Source: an uncultured Granulosicoccaceae bacterium
GTDB lineage: Bacteria; Pseudomonadota; Gammaproteobacteria; Granulosicoccales; Granulosicoccaceae
Assembly (NCBI GenBank): GCA_937931165.1
Contig: CALHCI010000099.1
Span: 1-47,394, forward strand
Direction: 5' to 3'
Length of the DNA stretch: 47,394 nucleotides
Position numbers and translations under genes: made by a program. Below the pieces are notes generated by a model, which was not told the origin of the DNA, ran no database searches, and worked only from the letters and a program-made list of their open reading frames with translations. Positions 5,252 to 39,807 of the stretch are shown piece by piece. Every line of letters starts with the position of its first letter. The first letter of the stretch is position 1.

Positions 5252-6091
5252 TTGAATTTTTCCAGACCGGCCAGGCTTGAGCAGGCGCTTGAGCAGTTGT
5301 GTGACAACGACTGGACAATTCTTGCCGGTGGCACAGACTACTACCCGGCGCTTCGCAGTGAAGCACCACGCGGGGCTGTGCTCGATATTACTGCTATTGA
5401 GACGCTTCGTGGTATAGAAACCACTGCCAGCGGGGTGCGGATTGGTGCGCTCACCACGTGGACTGACATCGTTAACGCAGAGTTACCGCCGGCATTTCTG
5501 GCGTTACAGCAGGCGGCTGTTGAAGTCGGGTCAGTGCAAATACAGAATCGTGCAACGATTGCCGGCAATCTTTGCAATGCATCGCCGGCGGCTGACGGTG
5601 TACCGCCGCTACTGGTATTGGACGCGAGTGTAGAGCTGCAATCTCAGGCGGGCACCCGCACCGTGCCCCTTCACGAATTTATCCAGGGCAATCGCCGCAC
5701 CGTAAGAAATCCTCAGGAGCTGGTCAGTGCTATTGTCGTCTCTGCCGATTCGTGTCACGGCAGCAGTGCGTTCAACAAGCTCGGCGCGCGCAAATATCTG
5801 GTGATCTCTATTGGTATGGTGGCAGTGCGCGCTGTCTGTAGTGCTGATCACATTGAACAAATAAGCGTTGCTGTCGGTTCCTGCTCGGAGGTGGCGCAAC
5901 GCTTGCGGTCAGTGGAATCGCTGCTTGCAGGCAAGCCTTCAAACAGTCAAACGGTAGCATTGATTGATCACCGACACTTGTCTGAACTTAAGCCGATTGA
6001 CGACATACGCGCTACGGCTAAGTACCGGCGTGATGCGGCATTGCAGATCATCAAAAGAACGGTCGCTACCAGTATTGGTGTACAGCAATGA
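5252..6091 (+). CDS. Molybdenum hydroxylase FAD-binding subunit (CoxM/XdhB type)
   Basis: A 279-residue medium subunit of the xanthine dehydrogenase/CO dehydrogenase family. It carries the FAD-binding motifs AGGTDYYPALR (around residues 24-34) and TIAGNLCNASPAAD (around 104-117), followed by the CO_deh_flav_C domain. The role is transfer of electrons from the FeS clusters of the partner subunit to an acceptor. The preferred start is a TTG at 5252, because GGAG at 5238-5241 lies ten bases upstream; a TTG at 5234 would place the start before that site. Its stop overlaps the next gene's ATG by four bases, so the two are translationally coupled. It is the first gene of the six-gene operon, about 80 bp after the RND exporter. 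Confidence 0.9.
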   Translation: MNFSRPARLEQALEQLCDNDWTILAGGTDYYPALRSEAPRGAVLDITAIETLRGIETTASGVRIGALTTWTDIVNAELPPAFLALQQAAVEVGSVQIQNRATIAGNLCNASPAADGVPPLLVLDASVELQSQAGTRTVPLHEFIQGNRRTVRNPQELVSAIVVSADSCHGSSAFNKLGARKYLVISIGMVAVRAVCSADHIEQISVAVGSCSEVAQRLRSVESLLAGKPSNSQTVALIDHRHLSELKPIDDIRATAKYRRDAALQIIKRTVATSIGVQQ

Positions 6092-8820
6092 CCAGCGGAC
6101 AAATCACACTGCAGGTCAACGGTAAGTCACAAACACTTTCTGCGCAGCCGCTTGAGCGATTATCAAATGTGTTGCGTCACCACGGCTACACTGGCACTAA
6201 AACCGGTTGTGACGCCGGAGACTGCGGTGCCTGTTCAGTGATGATCGACGGTGAGCTGGCTTGTGCCTGTCTGGTGCCTGTGGCACAGGTAGCGGGCAGT
6301 AATATTGAAACGGTTGAAGGGCTGGCTGATCAATCACAGTTGTCTACGTTGCAAAATGCTTTTGCACAACACGGTGCTGCACAGTGTGGCATCTGCACGC
6401 CGGGTATGCTGATCGCGGCGACGCGACTTTTACAAGACACATCGTCACCATCCCGAACACAGGTTGAAGATGCACTTGGTGGTGTTTTGTGTCGCTGCAC
6501 CGGGTACCGCAAAATTGTAGATGCGGTGTTAAGCGCTGGTCAGTCTGTCGACGCGCCGGCACCTGCCGTCGGGTCAGCAATCGGGGCACGTGTCGAAAGG
6601 CTTGACGGAATAGCCAAAATCAATGGAAGTGATTTGTTTGGTGCAGATGTTATTCCGCCAGATGCATTAAGACTGCGACTAATTCGAAGCCCGATGCACA
6701 GTGCAGCCTTTGAATTTGGGGACATAGACGCATGGGTCAGTCAGCAACCGGGGGTTGAGGCAGTATTCACCAGTGCAGACATTCCCGGTCGCAACTGCTT
6801 CGGGGTGATTCCACCGTTTGCTGATCAGGTTGTGTTTGCAGAATCTTTTACCCGCTTTAAAGGCGAGGCGGTTGCCGCTGTGGTGGGTGCCGCAGCAGAG
6901 ATTCAGTCGCTTGATCTCTCAACTTTTCCAGTGAACTGGCAAGCGCGCAATGAAGTGTTAACACCACAGACAGCAATGCAACCCGATGCCACTTTGGTGC
7001 ATGAGTTCCGCAGTGGTAATCTACTAATAGAAGGGCTGGTGCAAACCGGCAACGCAAAAGATCAGATAACCGCAAGTAAGTACGCCGCAACTGGTCACTA
7101 CACCACGCCGTTTATTGAACATGCGTATATAGAACCCGAGGCTGGCCTTGCCACCCGGGTTGGTGATCGAATTGAGATTCACACCTGTACACAGACTGCC
7201 GGCATGGCGCAGGAAGATCTGGCTGCCATTATGGATTTACCGCTGTCTGCTATTCGTGTTCTGCCAACGTCGGTGGGAGGCGGGTTTGGCTCAAAGCTCG
7301 ACTTATCAATTCAACCTTTTCTGTGTCTTGCTGCATGGTCTTTAAACAAGCCGGTTGCCGGTGTCTACAGCCGTATCGAGTCAATGCAAACGACTACCAA
7401 GCGACATCCATCGGATATACATATCAATGTAGCTTGCGATGATAAAGGGAAATTAACGGCGATTGATTTTGAAGGTGTGTTCAATACCGGTGCGTACGCG
7501 AGCTGGGGTCCGACAGTGGCTAACAGAGTACCCATTCATGCATCAGGGCCTTACTATGTACCAAACTATCGGGCACACTCTGTCGCAGTACATACAAATA
7601 CAGCGCCCGCCGGTGCATTCCGCGGATTCGGCGTACCTCAAGCGGCGATTGCGCTTGAGTGTGTACTGGATAAACTGGCAGACGCTGCACAGATTGACAG
7701 ACTACAGTTTCGTTTAACTAATGCACTAAACAATAACCAGCCAACCGTCACCGGGCAGGTGTTTAAACAGGGGGTCGGGATAAGCGAGTGTCTTAAAGCG
7801 CTTGAGCCAGCATGGCTGCGCGCCGGTGAAAATGCCAGCACCTATAACCAAAGCGCCGGGCGTTACCGTAAAGGTTGTGGGCTGGGCACTTGTTGGTACG
7901 GCTGTGGTAATACTTCTCTACCTAATCCGTCTACTATTAAAATCGCTGTCGATAGTGAGGCCAATGTCGTGTTGCACCAGGGAGCCATAGACATAGGGCA
8001 GGGTGCCAATACCGTCATGGCACAGATAGCTGCTGACACGATGGGTGTAGCTCTGAGCAGCATTGTATTGGTAGGGCCGGATACTGATATTACGCCTGAT
8101 GCCGGCAAGACATCCGCGTCAAGGCAAACGTTTGTCACAGGCAATGCAGTTGTGCTTGCAGCAACTGCATTGCGTGAAACCATTCTGCGTGAAGTCAATG
8201 CGTCAGCAGATTCCAGGCTGGAGATGCATGATGGTCAAATCACCATAGACGATGGACAGCAAAACCACCGCATACCACTGACCGGACGCGAGTGTGACGG
8301 TCATGGTTATGTGTTCACTGCTATTGAAACCTACGATCCGCCAACCTCTGATCTTGATGAAAACGGGCAGGGTGAGCCTTACGCGCAGTACGGCTATGGC
8401 GCACAACTGGTTGAGCTGACAGTCGATATGGAACTTGGCACCGTGAAGCTTGATAAACTCACCAGTGCACACGATGTTGGCCGTGCGATTAATCCGCTGC
8501 TTATTGAAGGGCAGATTGAGGGCGGTGCAACGCAGGGCATTGGGATGGCATTGATGGAAGAGTTCATTCCCGGTGTTGCAGAAAATCTGCACGACTACCT
8601 GATACCGACCATTGGTGATATCCCCGAGTTTGAGCATCACATCATTGAGGTAGAAGACGCCGAAGGTCCCTACGGTGCCAAAGGCCTGGGTGAGCATGTA
8701 CTTATACCAACAGCACCAGCCATCCTCAATGCAATCAGGGATGCCAGCGGTGCCGAGATCTGTGATCTGCCGGCAACCCCTGACAAGGTGCTGGCGGCAA
8801 TTCAAGCAGTGAACCGTTAA
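6088..8820 (+). CDS. Molybdenum hydroxylase, fused [2Fe-2S] and molybdopterin subunit (aldehyde oxidoreductase/nicotinate dehydrogenase type)
   Basis: A 910-residue fusion. Residues 1-75 are a plant-type [2Fe-2S] domain (Cys41, 46, 49, 61). Residues 76-150 are the second [2Fe-2S] domain (Cys100, 103, 135, 137). From about 165 onward come the two Mo-pyranopterin domains, with SVGGGFGSK, GAFRGFG and the catalytic-loop motif GAKGLGE, in which Glu869 is the expected base. The order and length closely resemble Desulfovibrio aldehyde oxidoreductase (about 907 residues), but here a separate FAD subunit precedes it. Such enzymes hydroxylate aldehydes or electron-poor C-H bonds in N-heterocycles using water. 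Because the next gene is 6-hydroxynicotinate-reductase-like, a nicotinate-type or purine/pyrimidine-type ring is a reasonable substrate guess. That is inference; the family call is firm. Confidence 0.92.
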   Translation: MTSGQITLQVNGKSQTLSAQPLERLSNVLRHHGYTGTKTGCDAGDCGACSVMIDGELACACLVPVAQVAGSNIETVEGLADQSQLSTLQNAFAQHGAAQCGICTPGMLIAATRLLQDTSSPSRTQVEDALGGVLCRCTGYRKIVDAVLSAGQSVDAPAPAVGSAIGARVERLDGIAKINGSDLFGADVIPPDALRLRLIRSPMHSAAFEFGDIDAWVSQQPGVEAVFTSADIPGRNCFGVIPPFADQVVFAESFTRFKGEAVAAVVGAAAEIQSLDLSTFPVNWQARNEVLTPQTAMQPDATLVHEFRSGNLLIEGLVQTGNAKDQITASKYAATGHYTTPFIEHAYIEPEAGLATRVGDRIEIHTCTQTAGMAQEDLAAIMDLPLSAIRVLPTSVGGGFGSKLDLSIQPFLCLAAWSLNKPVAGVYSRIESMQTTTKRHPSDIHINVACDDKGKLTAIDFEGVFNTGAYASWGPTVANRVPIHASGPYYVPNYRAHSVAVHTNTAPAGAFRGFGVPQAAIALECVLDKLADAAQIDRLQFRLTNALNNNQPTVTGQVFKQGVGISECLKALEPAWLRAGENASTYNQSAGRYRKGCGLGTCWYGCGNTSLPNPSTIKIAVDSEANVVLHQGAIDIGQGANTVMAQIAADTMGVALSSIVLVGPDTDITPDAGKTSASRQTFVTGNAVVLAATALRETILREVNASADSRLEMHDGQITIDDGQQNHRIPLTGRECDGHGYVFTAIETYDPPTSDLDENGQGEPYAQYGYGAQLVELTVDMELGTVKLDKLTSAHDVGRAINPLLIEGQIEGGATQGIGMALMEEFIPGVAENLHDYLIPTIGDIPEFEHHIIEVEDAEGPYGAKGLGEHVLIPTAPAILNAIRDASGAEICDLPATPDKVLAAIQAVNR

Positions 8821-8822
8821 TC

Positions 8823-10343
8823 ATGCCTGTAACGAAAGACGACAAAATTCGCTGTGATGCCTGCCCGGTGATGTGCTACATCGCCGATGGAAAATCCGGT
8901 GCCTGTGATCGTTACGCTAATCATGATGGTGCACTCATCAGAACAGACCCGCATCGTGTGTTAAGCAATGCGCTCGAAGACGGCACTAATAAGTCAGAGT
9001 TTCAGGTGGTGAAGTTTACGTCATCAGATGATGTGTGGGACGGGGACCTGTTGCACAGCGATAAAACTTTCGTGACTGCCATTGGCGCAGGTACCACCTA
9101 CCCGGATTATAAGCCTGCCCCGTTTATTGTCAGTCAGGAGGTAGAGGGCGTTGATATGGTGACGGTTGTCACCGAAGGTATCTACAGTTACTGCGGTGTT
9201 AAGGTAAAGATTGATACCGATCGACATATCGGTGCAGAACAAAGCGCGGTTCGAGCGCAGGGCGAAGTGATCGGGCATGTGACTACTGGCGAGTACGGTT
9301 CGCAGATGTTATCGATTGGTGGAGTGAATCATCTTACAGGCGGTTCAAAAAAAGAAGGGCGCGTTACCTGCGATTCTATGCTTAAGTTGTGTAACCGTGA
9401 ACCGGTGGAGCTAACGATTGATAATGGCTTGTCACTGGTAGTGCAGTCCGGTGCTGCCCCTGTTATTGATGGTGTAAAAGAAGAAAAAATGCGTGTTGGT
9501 TGTGGCTCTGCGACTATCGGTATGTTTGCCTCGCAATGGCAGGGTCTGGTCGATGAAGTTGTCGTGGTAGACGACCATATTACCGGTGTGGTGTCTGAAC
9601 ATCAGGCTGGCAAAGTCATTGACTGGCAGCCCACAGGCATTAAAGTTATTGGCCGCAAATCAACACCCGGCCGTTACTTTCAGGTAGCAGAGCCCGGAAC
9701 AGGCTGGGGCGGTACGAATGTCGATGATCCGTTAACCATACTCGGGCCATTCAACAAAAAAAATGCAAGTCCCGGTTTAACCCTGTTGATGGTGTCGACC
9801 ACCGGTGAGCAGTATGCGTACTATGTGCTCGATGACAATCTTCAACCCGTCTTAAAACATCTACCTGAATCACTAATGCAATCGGTCGAGCGTATTGCCG
9901 AGAACTGTGAGCCTGCATTGTGTTCTGTATTGTTCATGGGCGGAGCAGGTGGTTCATTGCGTGCCGGTGTCACCGAAAACCCGGTAAAGCTTACTCGCTC
10001 GGTTAAGCAGGCACTGACCCGGGTTACCTGTGGTGGTGCACCGGCCTATGTGTGGCCCGGGGGCGGCATTACCATTATGGTCGATGTCAATCGCATGCCG
10101 GAAAACTCTTTTGGCTATGTACCGACACCTGCACTGGTAGCGCCGGTTGAGTTTACGATGCGTCGTGCCGACTATGAAGCGCTTGGTGGTCATGCAGAAC
10201 ACATCACGGCAGTAGAGAAAATTCTGGGCGGCACGGTGCCATCACAGAACGATCATGTGCTCGCCGGGCGTCAGCATCTGCAAAACACCAACAGCAATCC
10301 ATGGCCACTGGACCGTCATCACTACTCGTGGTTTGATCAGTGA
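8823..10343 (+). CDS. 6-hydroxynicotinate reductase-like iron-sulfur flavoprotein
   Basis: A 506-residue protein that I recognise as the family annotated after 6-hydroxynicotinate reductase (Hnr) of Eubacterium barkeri. That enzyme reduces 6-hydroxynicotinate to 1,4,5,6-tetrahydro-6-oxonicotinate in nicotinate fermentation. Visible features are an N-terminal cysteine cluster, Cys11-X2-Cys14-X3-Cys18-X9-Cys28, that could bind a [4Fe-4S] centre. Several further Gly/Cys-rich stretches follow (EGIYSYCG, MRVGCGSATIG, FMGGAGGSLRAGV and TCGGAPAYVWPGGG). The ATG lies two bases after the preceding stop, and its own stop overlaps the next gene by four bases. Finding it in an apparently respiring gammaproteobacterium next to a molybdenum hydroxylase suggests an oxidise-then-reduce ring route. 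The actual substrate is not known and many family members may not act on nicotinate. Confidence 0.75.
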   Translation: MPVTKDDKIRCDACPVMCYIADGKSGACDRYANHDGALIRTDPHRVLSNALEDGTNKSEFQVVKFTSSDDVWDGDLLHSDKTFVTAIGAGTTYPDYKPAPFIVSQEVEGVDMVTVVTEGIYSYCGVKVKIDTDRHIGAEQSAVRAQGEVIGHVTTGEYGSQMLSIGGVNHLTGGSKKEGRVTCDSMLKLCNREPVELTIDNGLSLVVQSGAAPVIDGVKEEKMRVGCGSATIGMFASQWQGLVDEVVVVDDHITGVVSEHQAGKVIDWQPTGIKVIGRKSTPGRYFQVAEPGTGWGGTNVDDPLTILGPFNKKNASPGLTLLMVSTTGEQYAYYVLDDNLQPVLKHLPESLMQSVERIAENCEPALCSVLFMGGAGGSLRAGVTENPVKLTRSVKQALTRVTCGGAPAYVWPGGGITIMVDVNRMPENSFGYVPTPALVAPVEFTMRRADYEALGGHAEHITAVEKILGGTVPSQNDHVLAGRQHLQNTNSNPWPLDRHHYSWFDQ

Positions 10344-11242
10344 TCGCCGCTAAGATGATCAACAACGGTCGCAGGCTGCACCTGCAGCATGGCCCTATAG
10401 ATCTGATTATTGAGGCACACGGAAAGAACAGCGCAACTGCCTATAACGCAGCGGTTGTGCGTTTTGAAACGTTGTTGGAAGAGCTGGTTGAAGAGTTGCC
10501 ATTGCTGCGTTCAGTGACAAGCTGTGTCAATAATCAGCTGACGGGGCCGGTAGCAACGCGTATGCACTGTGCCGCAAGTTTATTTGCCGAAAAATTTACA
10601 ACACCCAAATTTACAACACCGATGATTGCCGTGGCAGGCAGTGTTGCCGATGAAATACTGAATACCATGCTCAGCAGTACCGAACTTGAAAAAGTTTATG
10701 TGAACAATGGCGGCGATATCGCATTGCATCTGAGCACAGGCCAAAGTTATAAAGCAGGCGTTGTCAGTAATCCTCAGAATACGGAAATGCCCGCAACAAT
10801 TACCGTACAATCTACCGATGGTATTGGCGGCATCGCAACCAGTGGCAGGCATGGTCGCAGCCTGAGTCTGGGCATTGCTGACTCTGTTACGGTGATGGCA
10901 GCCAGTGCGTCGGTAGCTGATGCCGCTGCCACACTCATCGCAAACGAAGTTACACTTCCTGGCAATGATGCGATTGTGCGCGTGCCAGCTGAGCAGCTTG
11001 ATCCCGATACTGATCTTTACGGGCAGGCAGTGACTGTCGAGGTGAATACACTCACTCAACATGAAAAAGACCTGGCCCTGGCCAACGGCCTGAATTACGC
11101 GCGTAAGTTAGTTAACCGACAATTGATCAGTGGTGCATTCCTGACGTTGCAGGGGTCATCACGAAGCGTTTACGGCGCATCCGAAAGTTTGGCGGAAGCG
11201 CATACTATTGATACAGACAAGAGAGCACTCTGTAATGCCTGA
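10340..11242 (+). CDS. UPF0280 family protein (ApbE-like fold)
   Basis: A 300-residue protein matching the UPF0280 family, which is structurally related to the ApbE flavin transferases. Diagnostic stretches are an N-terminal GPIDLIIEAHG, the central VAGSVADEILNTML and VYVNNGGDIALHL, and GGIATSGRHGRSLSLGIADSVTVMA with a following Ala-rich helix. This last part resembles the ApbE region that binds the flavin donor. The start is a GTG at 10340 overlapping the upstream stop (an ATG at 10355 is the alternative), and the stop overlaps the next start by eight bases. The biochemical role is not established. Given tight coupling to a flavin/FeS reductase, a role in flavin attachment or maturation of that reductase is a testable guess, not an observation. 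Confidence 0.8.
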   Translation: MIAAKMINNGRRLHLQHGPIDLIIEAHGKNSATAYNAAVVRFETLLEELVEELPLLRSVTSCVNNQLTGPVATRMHCAASLFAEKFTTPKFTTPMIAVAGSVADEILNTMLSSTELEKVYVNNGGDIALHLSTGQSYKAGVVSNPQNTEMPATITVQSTDGIGGIATSGRHGRSLSLGIADSVTVMAASASVADAAATLIANEVTLPGNDAIVRVPAEQLDPDTDLYGQAVTVEVNTLTQHEKDLALANGLNYARKLVNRQLISGAFLTLQGSSRSVYGASESLAEAHTIDTDKRALCNA

Positions 11243-11819
11243 AATTAAACTGAGAAAAATGATTGTGTCTGTTGAAGAGACATTCCACGAAGGCGGGCCC
11301 GTAGCTGATTCTCCATTGCGCAAGGCAGCAATTCTGGCGGTGATCGAAAATCCGTATGCCGGACGCTATGAAGAAGACATTGCCGGTTTCATGGATGATC
11401 TGAAACCACTGGGTGTGGAGATGGCTAACAAACTCATTGAGGCGCTTGGAGGTAAGGCAGAAGACATTAAGGGTTACGGTAAAGGTGCGATTGTTGGAGA
11501 GGCCGGTGAAATTGAACACGGTGCACTGTGGCATGTGCCTGGCGGCTACTCCATGCGTGAGTCGATTGCAGAAAGTATGGCTATTGTACCGTCGACAAAA
11601 AAGGTTGGTGCACCCGGTACACGTTTGGATATTCCACTCACGCACACCAATGCGTCTTACGTGCGTTCTCACTTCGACTCAATGGAAGTCGGTGTTAATG
11701 ATGCGCCGAGGGCCAATGAAATGATTGTTGCACTGACGATGTCGACAGGGGCACGCGTGCATAACAGGGCCGGCGGGTTGGCCGCTGAAGAGGTCAAAGG
11801 CGAAGACGGGTTGCGATAG
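11235..11819 (+). CDS. DUF1185 ('amino acid synthesis' family) protein, paralogue 1
   Basis: A 194-residue protein of the DUF1185/AA_synth family, which has known folds but no settled function. Conserved blocks are an N-terminal MIVSVEETFHEGG, VIENPYAGRY, the GYGKGAIVGEAGEIEHG segment (around residues 76-92), VPSTKKVG, SYVRSHFD, DAPRANEM and a terminal GEDGLR. The ATG at 11235 is chosen over an upstream in-frame TTG at 11208: it has a purine-rich aagagag about ten bases upstream and overlaps the UPF0280 stop by eight bases, as expected for coupling. The next gene, three bases downstream, is a diverged copy. Cytosolic; no signal or membrane segment. An enzyme of ring or amide hydrolysis is conceivable from context only. 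Confidence 0.85.
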   Translation: MPEIKLRKMIVSVEETFHEGGPVADSPLRKAAILAVIENPYAGRYEEDIAGFMDDLKPLGVEMANKLIEALGGKAEDIKGYGKGAIVGEAGEIEHGALWHVPGGYSMRESIAESMAIVPSTKKVGAPGTRLDIPLTHTNASYVRSHFDSMEVGVNDAPRANEMIVALTMSTGARVHNRAGGLAAEEVKGEDGLR

Positions 11820-11822
11820 ATC

Positions 11823-12401
11823 GTGCGTATAAGAAAAATTATCACGAGTGTTGAAAACACTCATATCGAGATGCAAAAACCTATCGAGCCTGCCACCAGA
11901 AAGGCGGTTGCGGCCGCGGTCATCGAGAATCCTTTTGCTGGTCAGTATGTCGATAATCTGGATGAATTAATGACTGCCGGTGAGACGCTCGGTCAGTTAC
12001 TTGGCGAGAAGGCCGTAGCCGCACTGGGAGTGTCACCGGCGCAGTGCGAAAGCTATGGCAAAGCCGCCATGGTTGGCAGCAACGGCGAGCTTGAGCATGC
12101 GGCAGCACTGCTGCATCCAAAGCTGGGTGCACCATTACGTAAAGCGGTTGAAAAAGGGGCGGCACTGGTGCCTTCGAGTAAAAAAATGGGTGGCTGCGGG
12201 CAACCGCTGGATGTGCCACTGGGGCACAAAGATGCTGCTTATGTTCGCAGTCATTTCGATGGTATTGAAATAAGAGTCGCCGACGCCCCGCGTGCTAACG
12301 AAATACTGATTGCCGTGGCAGTCACTGATTCCGGCCGGCCGCTACCCAGAGTGGGCGGCTTAACCCATGAGGATGCTATTGGGGAGGACGGTTTACGTTA
12401 G
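11823..12401 (+). CDS. DUF1185 ('amino acid synthesis' family) protein, paralogue 2
   Basis: A 192-residue second copy of the preceding gene's family, starting at a GTG three bases after its stop. The two share VIENP, SYGKAAMVG/GYGKGAIVG, GE.EH, VPS.KK.G, YVRSHFD, DAPRANE and the terminal GEDGLR, but differ widely elsewhere, including a Cys in the GGCGQPLDVPLGHKD stretch. This pattern of conserved pocket motifs on a diverged scaffold suggests an old duplication, with the two products possibly forming a hetero-oligomer. It is the last gene of the six-gene operon; about 35 bp of sequence without an obvious terminator separates it from the SprT-like gene. Function unknown. Confidence 0.85.
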   Translation: MRIRKIITSVENTHIEMQKPIEPATRKAVAAAVIENPFAGQYVDNLDELMTAGETLGQLLGEKAVAALGVSPAQCESYGKAAMVGSNGELEHAAALLHPKLGAPLRKAVEKGAALVPSSKKMGGCGQPLDVPLGHKDAAYVRSHFDGIEIRVADAPRANEILIAVAVTDSGRPLPRVGGLTHEDAIGEDGLR

Positions 12402-15010: not shown

Positions 15011-16744
15011 ATGGCGAAAGTATCACCGGAAGCGTTGCGCAGTTATCGCTGGTTAGGCGAAGATGACTTGCGCTCGTCGTCACACCGATCGCGTTTTATG
15101 CAGATGGGGTATAGCGAGGAAGACTGGGGCAAGCGCCCGTTGATTGCAATTGTCAATACGTGGTCTGACATCAATCAGTGTCATTCTCATTTTAAACACC
15201 GCGTAGATGATGTAAAACGCGGCGTGCTGCAGGCGGGTGGCATGCCGATCGAGTTACCGGCAATTTCGTTGTCAGAACCCATCGTCAAACCATCGACCAT
15301 GCTGTATCGAAACTTTTTGGCGATGGAGTGCGAAGAACTGCTGCGCAGCCATCCGGTAGACGGTGCGGTTTTGATGGGTGGTTGTGACAAAACCACGCCG
15401 GCACTATTGATGGGCGCTATCAGTATGGACATTCCCGCCATCTATGTACCGGCAGGCCCAATGCTGCGCGGGCACTGGCGTGGGCAGACACTCGGTTCAG
15501 GCTCGGATTCATGGAAATACTGGGATGACCTTCGCGCCGGTGTCATTGATCGTGATGACTGGAATGAAGTGATGGGGGGCATCGCACGCTCCTACGGTAC
15601 CTGTATGACCATGGGTACTGCTGCCACGATGATGTCTATTGCCGACAGTATTGGTATGTGTCTGAACGGTGCCAGCTCTATACCGGCTGCAGACTCCAAC
15701 CACATCCGAATGTGCAGTGCATCGGGGCGCCGGATAGTTGAAATGGTATGGGACGATTTTAAACCTTCCGATATTCTCAATCGCAAAGCCTATGAAAACG
15801 GTGTTGCGGCAGCAATGGCCATGGGGTGTTCCACTAATGCGATTATTCATCTGATTGCGATGGCACGCCGCAGCGGTGTAGACCTGGGGCTTGACGACTT
15901 TGAAAGTAAAAGCCGCACGGTACCGGTGATTGCCAATGTCAGGCCCAGTGGAGACACTTACCTGATGGAGGACTTTTTCTACGCGGGCGGGCTGCCGGCG
16001 ATGTTGTCTCGCATCGAAAAGGAGTTGCATACCGACTGTATTACCGTGTCAGGTAAAACCATTGGTGATGTGATAGCGAAGGCCAGTGTTTACAACGATG
16101 ATGTTATTCGTACTACAGATAATCCAATCTATCAGGAAGGTGCGCTGGCAGTGCTGAAAGGTTCGCTTGCACCGGACGGGTGTGTGATAAAACCTTCTGC
16201 CTGTGAAGAACGTTTTTTAAAGCACGAAGGTCCGGCACTGGTTTTTGATTCCTACCAGGAAATGAAAGACAACATCGACGACCCTGATCTTGATGTCACC
16301 GCAGATACGGTACTGGTATTACGCAACGCAGGGCCCAAAGGCGGTCCGGGTATGCCGGAGTGGGGTATGTTGCCGATACCGCAAAAGCTGCTGAAGCAGG
16401 GTGTGCGTGACATGGTGCGAATATCAGATGCACGTATGAGCGGCACCAGCTACGGTGCATGCATCCTGCACGTAGCGCCGGAATCGTATGTTGGCGGGCC
16501 ATTGGCACTGGTTAAAACCGGTGATGTTATCGCACTGGATGTACTGGCGCGTACTATTGATCTGAACGTTGATGCAGCCGAACTTAACGCAAGAAAAGCC
16601 ACGTGGCAGCCACCTGAGGTTAGGTATGAAAGAGGTTATGGCTGGATGTTCTCAAGGCATATTCTGCAAGCTGACAGCGGTTGTGACTTTGACTTTTTAG
16701 AGACCAGTTATGGTAAACCGGTAGATGAGCCGGCAATTTTTTAG
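15011..16744 (+). CDS. IlvD/Edd family dehydratase (sugar-acid, L-arabinonate-type)
   Basis: A 577-residue FeS dehydratase. Landmarks are VNTWSDINQCHSHFK (Cys ligand), MGGCDKTTPALLMGA (Cys ligand), the GTCMTMGTAATM block with the third Cys region, ADSNHIRMCSASG, a carbamylatable-Lys region and the C-terminal RISDARMSGTSYGACILHVAPES. IlvD/Edd enzymes dehydrate 2,3-dihydroxy acids; the opening RSYRWLGEDDLRSSSHRSR and the length place it with pentonate dehydratases such as L-arabinonate dehydratase rather than with IlvD itself. That would yield a 2-keto-3-deoxy acid for oxidation or aldol cleavage, consistent with the Udh-like and aldehyde dehydrogenase genes elsewhere in the window. Substrate is inferred from general resemblance only. 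It stands alone and is followed by repeat copy B. Confidence 0.88.
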   Translation: MAKVSPEALRSYRWLGEDDLRSSSHRSRFMQMGYSEEDWGKRPLIAIVNTWSDINQCHSHFKHRVDDVKRGVLQAGGMPIELPAISLSEPIVKPSTMLYRNFLAMECEELLRSHPVDGAVLMGGCDKTTPALLMGAISMDIPAIYVPAGPMLRGHWRGQTLGSGSDSWKYWDDLRAGVIDRDDWNEVMGGIARSYGTCMTMGTAATMMSIADSIGMCLNGASSIPAADSNHIRMCSASGRRIVEMVWDDFKPSDILNRKAYENGVAAAMAMGCSTNAIIHLIAMARRSGVDLGLDDFESKSRTVPVIANVRPSGDTYLMEDFFYAGGLPAMLSRIEKELHTDCITVSGKTIGDVIAKASVYNDDVIRTTDNPIYQEGALAVLKGSLAPDGCVIKPSACEERFLKHEGPALVFDSYQEMKDNIDDPDLDVTADTVLVLRNAGPKGGPGMPEWGMLPIPQKLLKQGVRDMVRISDARMSGTSYGACILHVAPESYVGGPLALVKTGDVIALDVLARTIDLNVDAAELNARKATWQPPEVRYERGYGWMFSRHILQADSGCDFDFLETSYGKPVDEPAIF

Positions 16745-17374: not shown

Positions 17375-19075
17375 TTAATTCAATTTAACGCCATAACTTT
17401 CTTCTAATTGCTGAACGGTGTAGTAGCCGTTGTCGAGATCAGATTGTATTTTCTCGATTGAGCGATTCTTCGGGTTGCCGAATCCACCGCCGCCGGGTGT
17501 GCCCACTTCAACACGATCACCTGCGGTAATGGCAATGCCCTGATCTTTAGATAAATGCAACGGTATGTACTGCTCACCATTGCGCCAAACGGTTACTGAA
17601 TTCGGCATGCCGTCTTTACCACCCAGCACACCCTGAGGGCCCACTCTACCATGGTCCATCACAAAAGAGGCCGTTGCTTCGCCTCTGCGCAATTCGATAC
17701 TGTATCTTATTCCAAAGCCGCCACGGAATTCACCGGCACCGCCGGAGCCTTCGCGCAACGCGTATTCACGATAGAGCACCGGAAAGTATTGCTCCATCAC
17801 TTCAACCGGTGGCGACTTTGATATGCCAATAGTAGAGCAGCCGTTGGTTAAGCCATCATGGTCATGCGTACCACCATAGCCTCCGCCGGAAAGTTGATAC
17901 ATCACAAATGACTGACCGCGTTGCGGATCGGTGCCGCCCAGTGCGAAGTTGCCACTGGTGCCGGCAGGCGCTGCACTAACGCGTTCCGGCAGCGCGGGTA
18001 CCAGTGCTGCGAATACCGCTTCTGCAATACGTTGTGAAACTTCTGCGGCACATCCGGATACCGGCCGCGGATATTCTGCATACAAAAACGTACCCTTCGG
18101 ATCTTTAATATGCAGTGGTTCAAATGCGCCGGCATTGATTGGCACGTCGGGGAAGATATGTCGCATCGCCAGGTATACGGATGACTGTGTTGTCGCCAGT
18201 ACGGAATTCATAGGTCCGGCGCACGGCGGGCTGCTGCCATCAAAATCTATATGCAGGTTGTTGTCTTTTTTGTTGATGTTGACTTGTATTGTTAATGGTT
18301 CATCCACAACGCCGTCTGAATCTACGATCGCGGTGCCGGTATATTGACCATCATCAATCGAACTAAGTCTCTGACGCATTTGCAGCGCTGCACGGCGGCG
18401 CAGTTCTGCAATAGCCTCTTTAAGTACCGGTGCGGAATATTTACTGACCAGCTGATCGAGCCGTTCTCGTCCAACTAAAAGTGCGGCAGATTGTGCTTTC
18501 ACATCACCGATGCGTTGATCGGCCACGCGTATGTTTGAACAGATGATTGAATAGATTTCGTTGTCGAGTTCACCGCGCTTAAACAGTTTCACCGGTGGCA
18601 GGCGCAGGCCTTCCTGTTCAACGGCGGTAGCATTGGCCGAAAACCCGCCGGGCACCGCGCCACCGATATCCGGCCAGTGACCTGTGTTAGATAACCAGCA
18701 GAAAATCTCATCGTTGTGGTAATACGGCATCGCAAAGCGCACATCCATCAGATGAGTGCCACCGAGGTAGGGATCATTGACGATGTAAATGTCACCGGGT
18801 TCGGGGGCTGCGATCTTTTCATCATTGATCATCTCAATCAGCACACGGGTGGAAAACTGCATGGTGCCGACAAACACAGGTAACCCGAGTGCGCCCTGTG
18901 CGATCAGCTCGCCGTTGTCTGCCGAATAAATGCCGTCTGAGCGATCATTGGCTTCGGCAATGATAGGTGAGAACGCAGCGCGCGAGAAACTTAAGTCCAT
19001 CTCGTCGCAGACCTGTTGCAAACTCGATTGAATCACCGCGAGCGTGATCGGATCTTGTGTGATGTCTTTAGTCAT
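17375..19075 (-). CDS. hyuB: Hydantoinase B / oxoprolinase family protein
   Basis: A 566-residue HyuB-type subunit. Family marks are EANDRSDGIYSADNGELIAQG near the start, NDPYLGGTHLMDVRFAMPYYH, the SNTGHWPDIGGAVPGGFSANA stretch and, at the C terminus, LREGSGGAGEFRGGFGIRY and GDRVEVGTPGGGGFGNP. With HyuA it forms an ATP-dependent enzyme that opens cyclic amides (N-methylhydantoin, 5-oxoproline) or, in the related acetone/acetophenone carboxylases, carboxylates ketones. The ATG at 19075 overlaps the HyuA stop by eight bases. The specific substrate cannot be read from the sequence. Confidence 0.92.
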   Translation of the reverse strand: MTKDITQDPITLAVIQSSLQQVCDEMDLSFSRAAFSPIIAEANDRSDGIYSADNGELIAQGALGLPVFVGTMQFSTRVLIEMINDEKIAAPEPGDIYIVNDPYLGGTHLMDVRFAMPYYHNDEIFCWLSNTGHWPDIGGAVPGGFSANATAVEQEGLRLPPVKLFKRGELDNEIYSIICSNIRVADQRIGDVKAQSAALLVGRERLDQLVSKYSAPVLKEAIAELRRRAALQMRQRLSSIDDGQYTGTAIVDSDGVVDEPLTIQVNINKKDNNLHIDFDGSSPPCAGPMNSVLATTQSSVYLAMRHIFPDVPINAGAFEPLHIKDPKGTFLYAEYPRPVSGCAAEVSQRIAEAVFAALVPALPERVSAAPAGTSGNFALGGTDPQRGQSFVMYQLSGGGYGGTHDHDGLTNGCSTIGISKSPPVEVMEQYFPVLYREYALREGSGGAGEFRGGFGIRYSIELRRGEATASFVMDHGRVGPQGVLGGKDGMPNSVTVWRNGEQYIPLHLSKDQGIAITAGDRVEVGTPGGGGFGNPKNRSIEKIQSDLDNGYYTVQQLEESYGVKLN

Positions 19076-21134
19076 GCGCAACCTCGATAATCAGATTGCC
19101 ATCTGCATCACCTGTGGCGGTACAGTCTGGTTCGATAATGATGGTGGTATCCATCTGTTCGAGCACGGCAGGGCCTGTAAAGCGTGCATCTGCAGGTATG
19201 TGATCACGACGGTAAACCGGTGTGTCGTGCCACTGGTTATTGAACCAGACCGGGCGCGTTGTTATTAGCGCTTCGTTCAGTGTTGGCTTGCGCTGGCTTT
19301 TGTCAATTAACGCGCTAAGATCAAGCGGTGCACGGTTACCGATGACCGTAGTATTCAGGTTGACCAGACTCGCGCGTATTTCTTTAAGTTCTACATGGAA
19401 GCGACTGAGATAGGCTTGCTCGAACAGTTGTTGCAGTGTGTCAGTGGTAACGTTTGTCGATGGGAGTGGCACATTGAGTAGATGTGTCTGCCCGATGAAC
19501 TGCATATCTGCCGAGTAACGACACTCTATCTGTTCGACTGCCACCGCCTCCGCTTCAACCAGCGCCCGACCTCTTGCGGTTTGTTGTTCTAACGTCTGGT
19601 TTATCTGCAGTGCATCAATTGTGTCCAGCGGACGGTTAATCGTATTGACGAAATCGTGGCGCACATCGGCCACCACACAACCCAGTGCGTTAGTGATCCC
19701 CGGTCTTGCGGGAATCAGTACGTTCGGAATCCCGAGTTCACGGGCAATGGCCACGGCGTGTAACGGCCCGGCACCACCGAACGCAAACAGTGCAAAGTCC
19801 CGCGGGTCGTGACCGCGACTCAGCGACACCATGCGCACAGCCCCCGCCATCTTGTTGTTGGCGATAGTCAGAATAGCGCCGGCGGCAGCATCGATAGATA
19901 AACCCAGTGGCTGCGCAATGTGTTGATCAACCGCGTCACGCACCTGCTGCATGGAGATTTTGTTGTCCACAGAAAACAAAGTGTCCGGGTTGAGTCTGCC
20001 GAGTACCAGGTTGGCATCTGAAATGGTCACACTGGTGCCACCTCTGCCGTAGCAGATTGGCCCGGGTGTGGCACCGGCGCTTTCAGGGCCTACCCTGAGG
20101 AGACCGGCGTCATCAATGGATGCAATTGATCCGCCCCCGGAACCAATGGTGCGTACATCGACCATTGGCACGTGGATTGGCATTGCGTATTCCACTTCGA
20201 GTTCATGACTGACACTGGGAATCGCGTCAAGTATCAGTGCTACATCAGATGAAGTGCCGCCCATATCGTAGGTGATAATATCCCTGATACCAGCGCGCTT
20301 CGCCGTGTAGGCAGCGGCCATCACACCGGAAGCCGGACCTGACATCACGGTTTTAGCGGCTTCTTTGGCTACCATGGAAGCGGACACCATACCGCCGTTG
20401 CCGTTCATCACCAGCAGCTCGTTGGCGTAGCCGTTGGCGGCGAGTTCGCTCTGCAGTCTGTCGATGTAGTTGTCCAGGATGGGTTGCACCGCAGCATTGA
20501 CACTGGCAGTTACGCCGCGCTCGTACTCGCGATACTCTGACAACAATGAATGACCGGTGGTGATGTAGGCGTTTGGCCACAACTGTGCGGCAATTTCTGC
20601 GGCGCGCTGCTCATGGGCAGGGTTGGCATAGGCGTGCAGAAAGTGTATTACCAGTGATTCGCAGTTTTGATCAAGTAATTGTTTGATTGCCTGTTTAAGT
20701 TCTGCTTCGTCGAGTACGGTCAACACATTACCGCTTGAATCCATGCGTTCACTGACTTCCAGTCGCAAGGCTCTCGGTATGATTGGTGTGAACTGGCCAA
20801 ACATGCCGTAGGGCTGAGGCCGCGTGCGACGACCGAGTTCTATGATGTCGCGAAACCCCCTTGTGGTGATCATGCCGGTGCGTGCAAGTTTACGTTCGAG
20901 CACTGCGTTGGTCGTGGTGGTTGTGCCGTTCACAATGGTATCGATGTCGGAAATCGCTACGTCACTTTGCGACAGTGCGTTCATGACCCCGAAGGCCTGG
21001 TTGTCTATGGTGGTAGGCGTTTTTGCAAAGCTGATTGATCCCTGTGAATCGAACACCAGCATATCGGTAAATGTGCCACCGACATCGACACCTGTAATTA
21101 CGCCGGAGCTTCTGTTTCCAGAACTTTTATTCAT
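19068..21134 (-). CDS. hyuA: Hydantoinase A / oxoprolinase family protein
   Basis: A 688-residue HyuA-type subunit with an actin/HSP70-like ATPase fold. Residues around 15-25 give GVDVGGTFTDMLVFD (the P-loop-like phosphate motif). Further on are ITYDMGGTSSDVALI, TIGSGGGSIASIDD, SLSRGHDPRDFALFAFGGAGPLHAVAIARELGI and a C-terminal domain with VLEQMDTTIIIEPDCTATGD. The start ATG at 21134 overlaps the CoA-transferase stop (ATGA type), and its own stop overlaps hyuB. This subunit activates the amide or ketone substrate with ATP. All key ATPase motifs seem intact. The adjacency of a family III CoA-transferase is less common than a permease or racemase and may help in identifying the pathway. Confidence 0.92.
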   Translation of the reverse strand: MNKSSGNRSSGVITGVDVGGTFTDMLVFDSQGSISFAKTPTTIDNQAFGVMNALSQSDVAISDIDTIVNGTTTTTNAVLERKLARTGMITTRGFRDIIELGRRTRPQPYGMFGQFTPIIPRALRLEVSERMDSSGNVLTVLDEAELKQAIKQLLDQNCESLVIHFLHAYANPAHEQRAAEIAAQLWPNAYITTGHSLLSEYREYERGVTASVNAAVQPILDNYIDRLQSELAANGYANELLVMNGNGGMVSASMVAKEAAKTVMSGPASGVMAAAYTAKRAGIRDIITYDMGGTSSDVALILDAIPSVSHELEVEYAMPIHVPMVDVRTIGSGGGSIASIDDAGLLRVGPESAGATPGPICYGRGGTSVTISDANLVLGRLNPDTLFSVDNKISMQQVRDAVDQHIAQPLGLSIDAAAGAILTIANNKMAGAVRMVSLSRGHDPRDFALFAFGGAGPLHAVAIARELGIPNVLIPARPGITNALGCVVADVRHDFVNTINRPLDTIDALQINQTLEQQTARGRALVEAEAVAVEQIECRYSADMQFIGQTHLLNVPLPSTNVTTDTLQQLFEQAYLSRFHVELKEIRASLVNLNTTVIGNRAPLDLSALIDKSQRKPTLNEALITTRPVWFNNQWHDTPVYRRDHIPADARFTGPAVLEQMDTTIIIEPDCTATGDADGNLIIEVAHD

Positions 21135-22405
21135 CGGGTCAGATCTGTTGATGGAAACGCACAGACACCTGCTTCGGCAAGTTCTGCAGTCCGGGTGTCG
21201 GAGAGTTGCAGCAGATCTTGCAGCACCTCAAGGGTATGTTCGCCGAGTACGGGTGGGGCACTGCGATATTGCGGCGGTGTGTCAGACAGGTGCAACGGTG
21301 ATGCAACACCCGGTGCTGCGCTGGTCTGGCCAGGTATGTTGGCGGGCTGGTCGATTCGCATTCCGCGTGCGACCACCTGAGGATCATTAAAGACGTCCTG
21401 CAAATCATTGATAGGTCCACAGGGTACTTTGGCAACGCCCAGCTCAGAGATCCAGTGCGCTGTGGTGTTAGTGACGGTAAGTTCCTTTAGCGCGGTGACC
21501 AGCGGTTCGCGGTGGGCAACGCGAAGCTTGTTGGTTTTGTAGTTCGGGTCACTTGAAAGTTGCGGTTTACCGAGGACCTCACAGAGACTTTGGAACTGCC
21601 GGTCATTGCCAACAGTGATAATCAAATGGCCGTCTGCCGTCGGAAACACCTGATACGGTACGATGTTGGGGTGGGCATTACCCATACGCTGCGGTGCGTT
21701 ACCGCTAACCAGAAAGTTGAGCGCCTGGTTTGCCATGGCAGCGACTGAGACATCCATCAGGCTCATATCAATATGTTGCCCGAGACCGGTTTTATCGCGG
21801 TGGGTCAGGGCGGTCAGAATACCAATGCACGCATACAGTCCGGTCAGTATGTCAGTGAGGGCAACGCCGATTTTCATCGGCTCATCACCCGCTGTACCCG
21901 GCGCCTGACCGGTTACGCTCATTAGGCCGCTCATCGCCTGAATGATAAAGTCGTAGCCTGCGCGCTCGGCGTAAGGACCGGTTTGTCCAAAGCCTGTGAT
22001 AGAGCAGTAGATAAGTCCCGGGTTGATCTCTTTTAACGACGCGTAGTCGAGTCCGTATTTGGCCAGCCCGCCCACTTTGTAGTTTTCAATGAATACATCG
22101 CTGCCGGCAACCAGTTCTTTCAACAGTTTGGCGCCTTCAGGATTGGCAAAGTCCAGTGCCAGCGATTTTTTGTTGCGATTAGCAGTGCAAAAGTAAGCGG
22201 AAAGCGCTTCATTGCCGGTGCCCCTGGGCTCAATAAACGGAGGCCCCCAGGCACGTGTGTCATCTCCTCCTTCGGGGCGTTCGATCTTGATGACCTCTGC
22301 GCCAAGATCGGCCAGTGTCTGGGTCGCCCAGGGACCTGCCAAAATTCGGGTGAGGTCGAGTACGCGCAGGTGGCCAAGCGCTGATGTGTTGATGTGTTCT
22401 GTCAA
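21131..22405 (-). CDS. Family III CoA-transferase (CaiB/BaiF type)
   Basis: About 424 residues from the preferred start. It shows the CaiB/BaiF opening LRVLDLTRILAGPWATQTLADLGAEVIKIERP, the segment YFCTANRNKKSLALDF, FIENYKVGGLAKYGLDYASLKEINPGLIYCSITGFGQTGPYAERAGYD, and the catalytic-Asp region (GVALTDILTGLYA followed by GQHIDMSLMD). These enzymes transfer CoA between carboxylic acids such as succinate or formate. The frame stays open to an ATG at 22561, but the first 52 codons show no family similarity, so a TTG at 22405 is favoured; its Shine-Dalgarno is weak and the start remains uncertain. It is the first gene of a coupled unit with hyuA and hyuB, and divergent from the ferredoxin gene. 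Confidence 0.88.
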   Translation of the reverse strand: MTEHINTSALGHLRVLDLTRILAGPWATQTLADLGAEVIKIERPEGGDDTRAWGPPFIEPRGTGNEALSAYFCTANRNKKSLALDFANPEGAKLLKELVAGSDVFIENYKVGGLAKYGLDYASLKEINPGLIYCSITGFGQTGPYAERAGYDFIIQAMSGLMSVTGQAPGTAGDEPMKIGVALTDILTGLYACIGILTALTHRDKTGLGQHIDMSLMDVSVAAMANQALNFLVSGNAPQRMGNAHPNIVPYQVFPTADGHLIITVGNDRQFQSLCEVLGKPQLSSDPNYKTNKLRVAHREPLVTALKELTVTNTTAHWISELGVAKVPCGPINDLQDVFNDPQVVARGMRIDQPANIPGQTSAAPGVASPLHLSDTPPQYRSAPPVLGEHTLEVLQDLLQLSDTRTAELAEAGVCAFPSTDLTR

Positions 22406-22652
22406 TTGACCGCAACCATGATAAAAGTTCGACAACCTGATGTCGGCGTCTGGTGTTGCCAGTATAACTAATGCCCTGCGAACCGGACGTACATTCTGCC
22501 GCAGTGCAGCGCGTGGCGGAAGGTCGCGCTTGTTGCCGCCCTTAGTTGTATTGGTTACCATACTACCGTGCGTGTAACGCGCTTTGATCCCGCTGTTACC
22601 ATCGGTGTTCCGGCGGGCTGATCATTCCCCAATTCTTTCGCGAGAGGCTCCC

Positions 22653-25844: not shown

Positions 25845-27353
25845 ATGTCCGTCTCGGAAACAATAACGGGTGCAAAAAGCACTCAGTCAACCGACTCAAG
25901 TATTCACTCCGCCAGCGAAGTCAAATCATTCATTGACCGCGAGAGCGTGAGGCGGCAGTCCAACAAGGTGCTACATGGCCATCCTTCTCCGATGTACTGG
26001 AAACAGCTTCCGGAATCGGTGGAGACATTGCTTGAGAAGCGTCTCGACTTTGCAAAACACCAGGATTTCGGTGTAAACCTCTACGTCGGTACGCCATTTT
26101 GCCTTAAAACCAAACCTGCACGATGCGGGTTTTGTTTGTTTCCCAGTGAAGACTATCGCGGCAATGCCGGTGTGGAAGACTACATTGATATTCTGCAGAA
26201 AGAGTTTGATTTCTATAAACCGTACTACGGTAATGACAAACTCTCGAGTATTTACTTTGGCGGGGGCACACCTAATCTTTACCATCCGGAACACTATGGC
26301 AGACTAATGTCGTTTGTCGATCAGCTGTATGGTGGTATACCGGACAATATAGAAATCACACTGGAAGGCATACCGCAGCTTTTTAATGAAGAAAAGCTAA
26401 CCGCTATAAAAAATGCCGGTTTCAATCGCATTAGCATGGGGGTTCAGCAGTTAAACGAACAACTGGTGAAATACAGCGGTCGAAAGCAAAACAATATGCA
26501 AGTGTTCCGCGCGCTCGAGATCAGTCAGAAACTCGATCTTGCTTCCAGCATCGATCTGATCTACGGGTGGCCTGAGCAAACCATGGAAGATATGCTCAAT
26601 GATTTGAAAGTTGCTGTAGAGGCGGGTGTCCATCACCTGACGCACTATGAATTAAACGTGGCAGGCAGGAGCGATTTTGCGTCACGTCAGAAACGTGCGT
26701 TGTTGCCGTCTATTCAGACCAACATTGAGATGTACCATCGAGCCAATGACTACCTTCGTTCACAGGGCTTCGAACAGGTTACCGTGTATGACTGGAAAAA
26801 AATCGAGTCATCAACGCAGAAAGAGCGCCTGGGTCGGTATGACTATGAGCACAATATGCATCACTTTGTCGATCATGACGAAGGAGCGGTAAACCATACG
26901 CAGCAGGTGTGCGGGATAGGTTTTGCGGCAGTTAATTTTCATGTGAATGGTGTAGCTGCCGACGATGAAAGCTGGATCTACATGAATCATACTTCACTCG
27001 AGAAATACGCGAAGAAGGTTTCAGAAGGCAGATTTCCGGTTGAGCGGGGTTTTAAATACAATCACCGGGATGTCAAACTGGCGTGGCTGTTTCAGTCTAT
27101 GCAGACAATGAAGATTAATCATCTGGATTACCGGAAGATATTTAATGAAAACCTTCTCGAGCGTTATGGTGCGGTCTGGGAAGAGCTGGACAAGCGAAAC
27201 TGGATTCGCCTCAGTGAAGCTCATGTCGAGTTTGTTGGCGAAGGTCAATACTACATGCCAATGCTTCAGGCACTGATCGCGAGCAAACGGCTGGCTGAGA
27301 TTCGAGCTGCTAAAAAGGATGATCTCGCGTCAATTGCAGTGTCCATTGAGTAG
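25845..27353 (+). CDS. HemW/coproporphyrinogen III oxidase-like radical SAM protein with CX7CX2C cluster motif
   Basis: A 502-residue radical SAM protein of the HemN/HemW-like superfamily. The cluster motif has Cys86, Cys94 and Cys97, giving CX7CX2C instead of the usual CX3CX2C. Further motifs are SSIYFGGGTPNLY (the GGE-like SAM site), FNRISMGVQQLNEQ and ASSIDLIYGWPEQT, followed by a HemN C-terminal-like region. The reaction is unknown: HemW is a heme chaperone, HemN a coproporphyrinogen oxidase, and relatives methylate or cleave heme. The ATG at 25845 has GAGGA ten bases upstream. A stronger AAAGGAG at 25811-25817 sits inside a four-codon mini-ORF (25808-25822). The alpha/beta hydrolase follows after 16 bases and is probably cotranscribed. 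Confidence 0.88.
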   Translation: MSVSETITGAKSTQSTDSSIHSASEVKSFIDRESVRRQSNKVLHGHPSPMYWKQLPESVETLLEKRLDFAKHQDFGVNLYVGTPFCLKTKPARCGFCLFPSEDYRGNAGVEDYIDILQKEFDFYKPYYGNDKLSSIYFGGGTPNLYHPEHYGRLMSFVDQLYGGIPDNIEITLEGIPQLFNEEKLTAIKNAGFNRISMGVQQLNEQLVKYSGRKQNNMQVFRALEISQKLDLASSIDLIYGWPEQTMEDMLNDLKVAVEAGVHHLTHYELNVAGRSDFASRQKRALLPSIQTNIEMYHRANDYLRSQGFEQVTVYDWKKIESSTQKERLGRYDYEHNMHHFVDHDEGAVNHTQQVCGIGFAAVNFHVNGVAADDESWIYMNHTSLEKYAKKVSEGRFPVERGFKYNHRDVKLAWLFQSMQTMKINHLDYRKIFNENLLERYGAVWEELDKRNWIRLSEAHVEFVGEGQYYMPMLQALIASKRLAEIRAAKKDDLASIAVSIE

Positions 27354-27369
27354 CGGGTTCATCTCTTAG

Positions 27370-33036: not shown

Positions 33037-33191
33037 TGAGTTGTTCTGGTGTCGGAGGTGCGCAGGTTTGGTGCTGGCTGATAGCGCAACAAATTACTGT
33101 ATTATCGGATCGCAAGGCACCTGTAGCCGGATTATGTCATTGTTAGTTGTATGCATTTCGACTTTTCACCGATTTTATTCGAGGTTTCAGT

Positions 33192-34652: not shown

Positions 34653-34655
34653 CCA

Positions 34656-35678: not shown

Positions 35679-35795
35679 TTGCTTTATCAGCCAGTGACGG
35701 CGGGTTTAGGCCAGTAAACCTGACCAGTGATCTTAATATGCACCCTAAGATATGATTGGCTGCTAAACTAGAATAAAAAGAAAGGGTTGAATCCT

Positions 35796-37628: not shown

Positions 37629-37648
37629 TCTGTAAGAAGACGCGTTAA

Positions 37649-39804: not shown

Positions 39805-39807
39805 CGT

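Follow-up and report, generated by a model that had tools for sequence, protein, structure and literature searches.

The nicotinate fermentation cluster of Eubacterium barkeri encodes a molybdenum hydroxylase and 6-hydroxynicotinate reductase (Hnr), followed by lactam opening. The solved entries 3hrd and 2vun presumably belong with this cluster, in which the hydroxylase is a four-subunit dehydrogenase and the ring opener an enamidase. The E. barkeri Hnr is said to carry a covalent flavin. The product of the enamidase is reportedly 2-formylglutarate, and the later steps reportedly run via methyleneglutarate. The accessible part of PMC3511419 describes, for Azorhizobium caulinodans and for Bradyrhizobiaceae, a nicotinate cluster in which a nicotinate hydroxylase and Hnr are accompanied by two unknown proteins. 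The trigonelline (tgn) clusters, which carry TgnF and are mentioned in the accessible part of PMC7913881, also join a DUF1185 protein to an opened pyridine ring.

We analyzed a window of 47,394 nucleotides, which is the whole stretch studied, from an uncultured Granulosicoccaceae bacterium (assembly of 4.86 Mb, 94.9% complete). We judge its six-gene block to be a genuine operon, conserved in relatives, that probably serves a known route in which parts have been swapped, and not a new kind of system. The block shares with the A. caulinodans cluster, as far as the accessible part of PMC3511419 describes it, a probable nicotinate hydroxylase, an Hnr-like protein and two further kinds of protein. 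In the Bradyrhizobium loci L138, L143 and L148, UPF0280 and DUF1185 fit the place of the two unknown proteins named there. Against the same partial description, the present locus differs in having an FAD-Mo hydroxylase instead of NicAB, two DUF1185 genes instead of one, no enamidase match, and no cluster transporter or regulator in the window. The sequence-only reading had known of no described pathway with this gene set; the cluster in PMC3511419 corrects that statement. In a literature search limited to open-access papers, none was found that names UPF0280, and DUF1185 and 6-hydroxynicotinate reductase were not found together.

Organization of the locus

The six genes lie on the plus strand. 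The FAD subunit of the molybdenum hydroxylase (5252..6091; PF00941 and PF03450 over the cut-off) starts at 5252 with the codon TTG, which is closely preceded by GGAG. It is followed by the molybdenum hydroxylase proper, in which the [2Fe-2S] and molybdopterin parts are fused in one chain (6088..8820; Fer2, Fer2_2, MoCoBD_1, MoCoBD_2), and by an Hnr-like ring reductase (8823..10343), an Fe-S flavoprotein by relation. Then come an ApbE-like UPF0280 protein (10340..11242; NF003322, 340.7 bits against a cut-off of 290) and two copies of DUF1185 (PF06684, cut-off 27), D1 (11235..11819; 241 bits) and D2 (11823..12401; 243 bits). Measured by ORF ends, the spacing is in order an overlap of 4, a gap of 2, overlaps of 4 and 8, and a gap of 3 nucleotides. 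These ORF ends and the domain searches bear out the earlier call of six tightly spaced genes on one strand. Scans for promoters (6 promoter-like sites, 7.2 expected) and terminators (12 terminator-like sites, 7.5 ± 3.2 expected) were uninformative.

Some 5 kb downstream, on the minus strand, lie genes for a HyuB-type subunit (17375..19081; PF02538) and a HyuA-type lactamase subunit (19068..21134; PF01968), which may be ring-opening partners, and for a family III CoA-transferase (21131..22561; PF02515), possibly acting on glutarate. The boundaries 5252-12401 given earlier are thus right for the six genes; they omit the HyuAB genes at 17375-21134, which are possibly part of the route.

Genes for SprT, SnoaL and IlvD/Edd proteins stand between the operon and HyuAB. 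They are not favoured as pathway members, being found in none of 109 other loci. A near relative (G004, locus L289) has all three, arranged as here, in the stretch from D2 to HyuB, and IlvD adjoins HyuB in relatives G001 and G010, both without Hnr; they therefore look like local backbone. The IlvD/Edd protein itself (15011-16744) scores 1040.8 bits against the NCBIfam cut-off of 882 for L-arabinonate dehydratase. The upstream nucleoside hydrolase and MMPL genes were also rejected as members, with one other locus (L079) having them. Elsewhere in the window there are genes for a radical SAM protein and, next to it, an alpha/beta hydrolase (25845-28272), a row of aldehyde dehydrogenase, peptidase family S58 and dipeptide-type ABC transporter genes that is possibly an uptake and breakdown operon (33147-41430), and a cellulase-like family 12 glycosyl hydrolase that contains three stretches of CBM_10 (44070-45470).

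Conservation of the block

Hnr is present in 36 of 192 relatives, the own genome counted; a 37th (G090) was dropped from the tally because its match spans 38 residues. Among 398 sampled genomes of the phylum, 32 have Hnr, and the identical 32 have NF003322 over the cut-off, with two more genomes below it. The edges of the Hnr and UPF0280 hits are separated by 15-111 nt in 30 of these genomes; in the remaining two the distances are 367 and 552 nt. DUF1185 occurs in 59 of the 398, including 31 of the 32 with Hnr (the exception is G323). Thirty loci from the search with Hnr, counting that of the window, have UPF0280 after Hnr without exception, and 28 of them have DUF1185 within the short flank.

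A wider survey took the best 80 of at least 593 Hnr loci. UPF0280 was found in 78 and DUF1185 in 74 of the 80, and Mo hydroxylase, Hnr, UPF0280 and DUF1185 are consecutive on one strand in 49. These best 80 are 66-73% identical to the query and thus speak for proteobacterial relatives only. As to the loci lacking a member, L116 is cut by a contig end just after Hnr. In L117, UPF0280 was not found in 21 kb of sequence and Hnr is followed directly by DUF1185. No DUF1185 was found in L085, L086, L110, L123 and L134, which are uncut at that side. The D1+D2 pair occurs in 42 of the best 80 loci, D2 alone in 18, D1 alone in 14 and neither in 6, which suggests that one copy of either type may suffice. 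In locus L010 (relative G007), only D2 follows UPF0280, preceded by a 29-residue piece matching the C-terminus of D1, as if D1 had recently been lost. Failure of the genes to co-occur elsewhere would have spoken against a joint pathway; in the genomes surveyed the homologues do co-occur.

Annotated relatives point the same way. In six of nine plasmid loci the annotation reads 6-hydroxynicotinate reductase, UPF0280 family protein and amino acid synthesis family protein; in the other three the last two genes bear the label hypothetical protein or peptide synthetase. The nine vary in what else they carry: ferredoxin--NADP reductase (six loci), an amidohydrolase (three) or a hydantoinase- or acetophenone-carboxylase-type A/B pair (six), an ABC transporter, and a regulator, MarR or NicR. 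In the window, nothing matches the MarR, substrate-binding, permease and ferredoxin reductase proteins of the cluster at L164, and the best match to the L164 substrate-binding protein anywhere in the genome is 23% identical.

Exchange of the hydroxylase and of the ring opener

A molybdenum hydroxylase stands beside hnr, as expected for reductive nicotinate degradation clusters. The best solved relative of its FAD subunit is 3hrd_C, the FAD subunit of nicotinate dehydrogenase (E 7e-29), and solved relatives of the Mo hydroxylase include 1dgj, 1rm6 and 3hrd. Together with the conserved block, this agrees with the sequence-only reading of one pathway that hydroxylates an N-heterocycle and then reduces the ring.

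Among 110 Hnr loci, 75 have the FAD-Mo form and 25 have NicB. For 92 of them we built a quick Hnr tree, after dropping 18 that were too short or in which Hnr was not readable in one piece. The tree has 89 different rows and 25 weak branches among 86 inner ones, and some loci are the same contig twice. What is new is a twofold exclusive exchange across these 92 loci, of NicAB against FAD-Mo as the hydroxylase and of enamidase against caprolactamase-like HyuAB as the ring opener. FAD-Mo is found in 62 loci and NicB in 23; 7 have neither hydroxylase and none has both. Enamidase is found in 46 and HyuA in 20; 26 have neither opener and none has both. Hydroxylase and opener each switch at least five times on the tree, and all four combinations occur (30, 14, 10 and 7 loci). 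In the 63 long loci among the best 80 of at least 593, Fisher values that ignore kinship are 3e-4 for the ring opener and 3e-11 for the hydroxylase. The HyuA thresholds differ between the 80-locus survey and the 92-locus tree. Two exclusive exchanges in all four combinations argue for the same intermediates. The simplest reading is that the members of each pair do the same job, which argues that the FAD-Mo enzyme makes 6-hydroxynicotinate.

The enamidase query gave no match at E<=1e-3 in the own genome (94.9% complete). The same query has matches in 34 of the 192 relatives and hence works; the amidohydrolase of L172, which is enamidase-like, matches solved enamidase 2vun at E 2e-105 over 385 of 388 residues. 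Of the 36 Hnr genomes of the family and its near kin, 30 have enamidase and none of these has a HyuA orthologue, and five of the six without enamidase, the own genome among them, have one (72% or more identity). The sixth, G046, has neither opener and is 63% complete. Within the own genus, one event may account for the split. Enamidase is further present in four relatives that lack Hnr (G002, G019, G040 and G044).

The window's HyuB is 73% and its HyuA 64% identical to the corresponding proteins of an hnr operon, and the other three HyuA matches in the genome are at 33-34%. The best NCBIfam matches of the HyuAB pair are caprolactamase alpha for HyuA and beta for HyuB, at 542.5 and 316.3 bits and so below the cut-offs of 1000. 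The pair is accordingly related to caprolactamase CapAB of the hydantoinase/oxoprolinase family, below the equivalog cut-offs. The neighboring CoA-transferase has succinate--glutarate CoA-transferase as its best NCBIfam match, at 529.7 bits and below the equivalog cut-off of 750. As a fixed member of the pathway it is a weak candidate: among 109 other loci, 2 have it in the neighborhood of hnr.

The putative ring reductase and UPF0280

The Hnr-like protein is named through 26 plasmid-borne relatives, to which it is 60-80% identical; 17 of these are annotated as 6-hydroxynicotinate reductase. No Pfam or NCBIfam family was matched at E<=1e-3 by the protein itself; a weak Pfam match to GCV_T_C was seen in 15 of 16 members (best E 5.5e-4). 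The motif CxxCPxxC-C is present in 94 of 94 Hnr rows from two overlapping alignments. Eight cysteines are invariant across 52 rows, and a degenerate, inactive paralogue is rejected on these grounds. The predicted structure is middling (pLDDT 73.9, pTM 0.68). It gave no Foldseek match at E<=1e-3, and a search for solved sequence relatives found none (best E 0.15).

UPF0280 has no Pfam family match at E<=10, and its model is good (pLDDT 91.3). After its own relative 2o34, all Foldseek matches at ranks 3-41 are ApbE, Ftp or FmnB proteins (probability 0.98-1.00, E 1e-5 to 4e-3, TMq 0.33-0.50). ApbE proteins bind the nucleotide and Mg2+ through the motifs GGD and ADxxAT and modify the partner protein at a DxxSGAT-like target motif. 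Across UPF0280, an NNGGD-type motif is kept in 53 of 54 rows, D194 is invariant and T198 is present in 90% or more; the narrow form ADAxAT is found in 33 of 54. The usual target motif was found in none of the 94 Hnr rows of the two overlapping alignments, so the flavin site, if there is one, would be new. An R-x-G-V/I/A-T stretch around Hnr T384, kept in 93 of 94 rows, is no more than one possible candidate.

The ApbE-like fold, the kept GGD and Asp-Thr pair and the co-occurrence make flavin loading onto Hnr the best guess. Judged by its modeled fold, UPF0280 is probably a flavin transferase or maturation factor for Hnr. The earlier proposal that it matures the flavin reductase is therefore upheld in part: the fold and the shared 32 genomes support it, and the missing ApbE target motif in Hnr does not.

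The DUF1185 proteins

D1 and D2 are 44% identical. D2 matches the solved protein SPO0826 (2qtp) at E 7e-92 and 3byq at E 8e-31. The authors of the SPO0826 structure, in the accessible part of PMC2954203, inferred a role in amino-acid metabolism from the fold and neighboring transporter genes. Alignment of 26 DUF1185 proteins of both kinds shows 15 invariant residues, including K82, E91, E93, H94, R107 and R173 (numbered on D1 without the first Met).

DUF1185 away from Hnr was surveyed in 19 of the 28 Hnr-less genomes that have it, one locus each, and in a third copy in the own genome, which gives 20 loci. A luciferase-like monooxygenase cluster is present in 14 of the 20 and an aldehyde dehydrogenase cluster in 16, where one or two members of each protein cluster were identified by Pfam; a flavin reductase and a hydrolase are often present. 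We take this make-up to be that of trigonelline-type clusters. Such clusters differ from the present operon in their luciferase-type oxygenase and flavin reductase, and no Hnr was seen in the 19 genomes examined. The third DUF1185 gene of the own genome (L259:10040-14417, contig C155) has genes for a LysR regulator, a flavin reductase and a luciferase-like monooxygenase as its neighbors, and the locus is possibly a trigonelline-type cluster in the same genome.

The occurrence of DUF1185 in trigonelline-type clusters as well suggests a shared step after ring opening. The reductive nicotinate and trigonelline routes must both lose CO2 after ring opening to reach the semialdehyde, and from this need comes the reaction that we propose for DUF1185. 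TgnF is stated to aid the oxidation of succinate semialdehyde, as cited in the accessible part of PMC7913881, which fits the proposal. In the same part of that source, the authors' tests showed no effect of HcdD, which is a DUF1185 member from a coumarin pathway; this counts against the proposal. Action of the DUF1185 pair on the reduced-ring product, as first suggested, stays plausible.

Proposed pathway and alternatives

To judge from the sequences, the operon probably encodes the front half of reductive nicotinate breakdown, with FAD-Mo, Hnr, UPF0280, opener and DUF1185 steps. We infer the substrate and every reaction of the route from gene content, conserved linkage, fold and the exchanges. 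The FAD-Mo hydroxylase would convert nicotinate, or a close pyridine carboxylate, to the 6-hydroxy form, and the Hnr-like Fe-S flavoprotein would reduce the 6-hydroxy ring to the enamide lactam THON. UPF0280 would load or attach the flavin of Hnr. The lactam would be opened by enamidase in many relatives and here perhaps by the HyuAB pair. In a further step towards glutarate, DUF1185 may release CO2 from the opened product, 2-(aminomethylene)- or 2-formylglutarate, and so yield glutarate semialdehyde; this chemistry is put forward tentatively, and we would not count on it.

The FAD-Mo form might instead act on trigonelline, homarine (N-methylpicolinate) or another ring, with nicotinate left to the NicAB clusters. 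Rieske oxygenase genes, possible N-demethylases, lie near the block in 17 of the 110 loci (L078-L081, L083, L084, L092, L093, L095, L098, L101, L123, L125, L136, L164, L168 and L171), 16 with FAD-Mo, none with NicB and one (L092) with neither, which leaves room for an N-methylated substrate, and homarine catabolism is mentioned in the accessible part of PMC13390433. We nevertheless think it unlikely, because the clusters with FAD-Mo and those with NicB have Hnr and either opener in common and switch on one Hnr tree, and the nearest solved FAD subunit belongs to a nicotinate dehydrogenase. The ring opener is less settled. HyuAB at 17375-21134 may serve another pathway, the real opener being missing from the assembly or not recognized. 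The CoA-transferase adjoins HyuA in 8 of 8 relatives examined, with or without Hnr, and HyuA orthologues (74-85% identical) occur with HyuB and the CoA-transferase in four relatives without Hnr (G001, G009, G010 and G017; 80-91% complete); HyuAB may thus have another job here. The incomplete assembly and the more distant HyuA paralogues (41-44%) in some enamidase genomes fit this as well. It is a serious alternative, if a somewhat doubtful one, since the HyuA orthologue is confined among the 36 Hnr genomes to those without enamidase and hyuAB directly follows DUF1185 in other lineages. We lean slightly towards HyuAB as the opener in the own genome.

That the DUF1185 proteins themselves open the lactam or lactone ring would agree with their presence in clusters with a lactam (THON), in trigonelline-type clusters and, in the accessible part of PMC7913881, with the lactone dihydrocoumarin. 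It is improbable in view of the 66 of 92 loci that already have enamidase or HyuA, 65 of which have DUF1185 too. UPF0280, for its part, might be a bound subunit or an FAD-handling helper of the Hnr complex and no flavin transferase. Its exact co-occurrence and adjacency with Hnr fit such a role equally, as do the missing target motif in Hnr and its lower conservation (mean column identity 46% against 68% for Hnr). Set against the run of ApbE, Ftp and FmnB folds and the kept NNGGD-type, D194 and T198 positions, this is doubtful, and the flavin transferase or maturation factor is preferred. A bolder combination would have UPF0280 act as a dedicated transferase that flavinylates Hnr at a site unlike the known ApbE motif, DUF1185, as a new type of enzyme, deaminate or decarboxylate 2-formyl dicarboxylates in both routes, and an ATP-dependent lactamase replace enamidase several times; taken whole, we consider it rather unlikely.

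The exchange of enamidase and HyuAB offers a way to recognize the pathway where a genome seems to lack part of it. Two families without known function, DUF1185 and the NF003322 form of UPF0280, are tied here to testable jobs. If UPF0280 flavinylates Hnr, flavin attachment would extend past the ApbE targets known so far. Should DUF1185 act downstream of ring opening in both of these dissimilar pyridine routes, a gap would be closed in the breakdown of vitamin B3 and of alkaloids.
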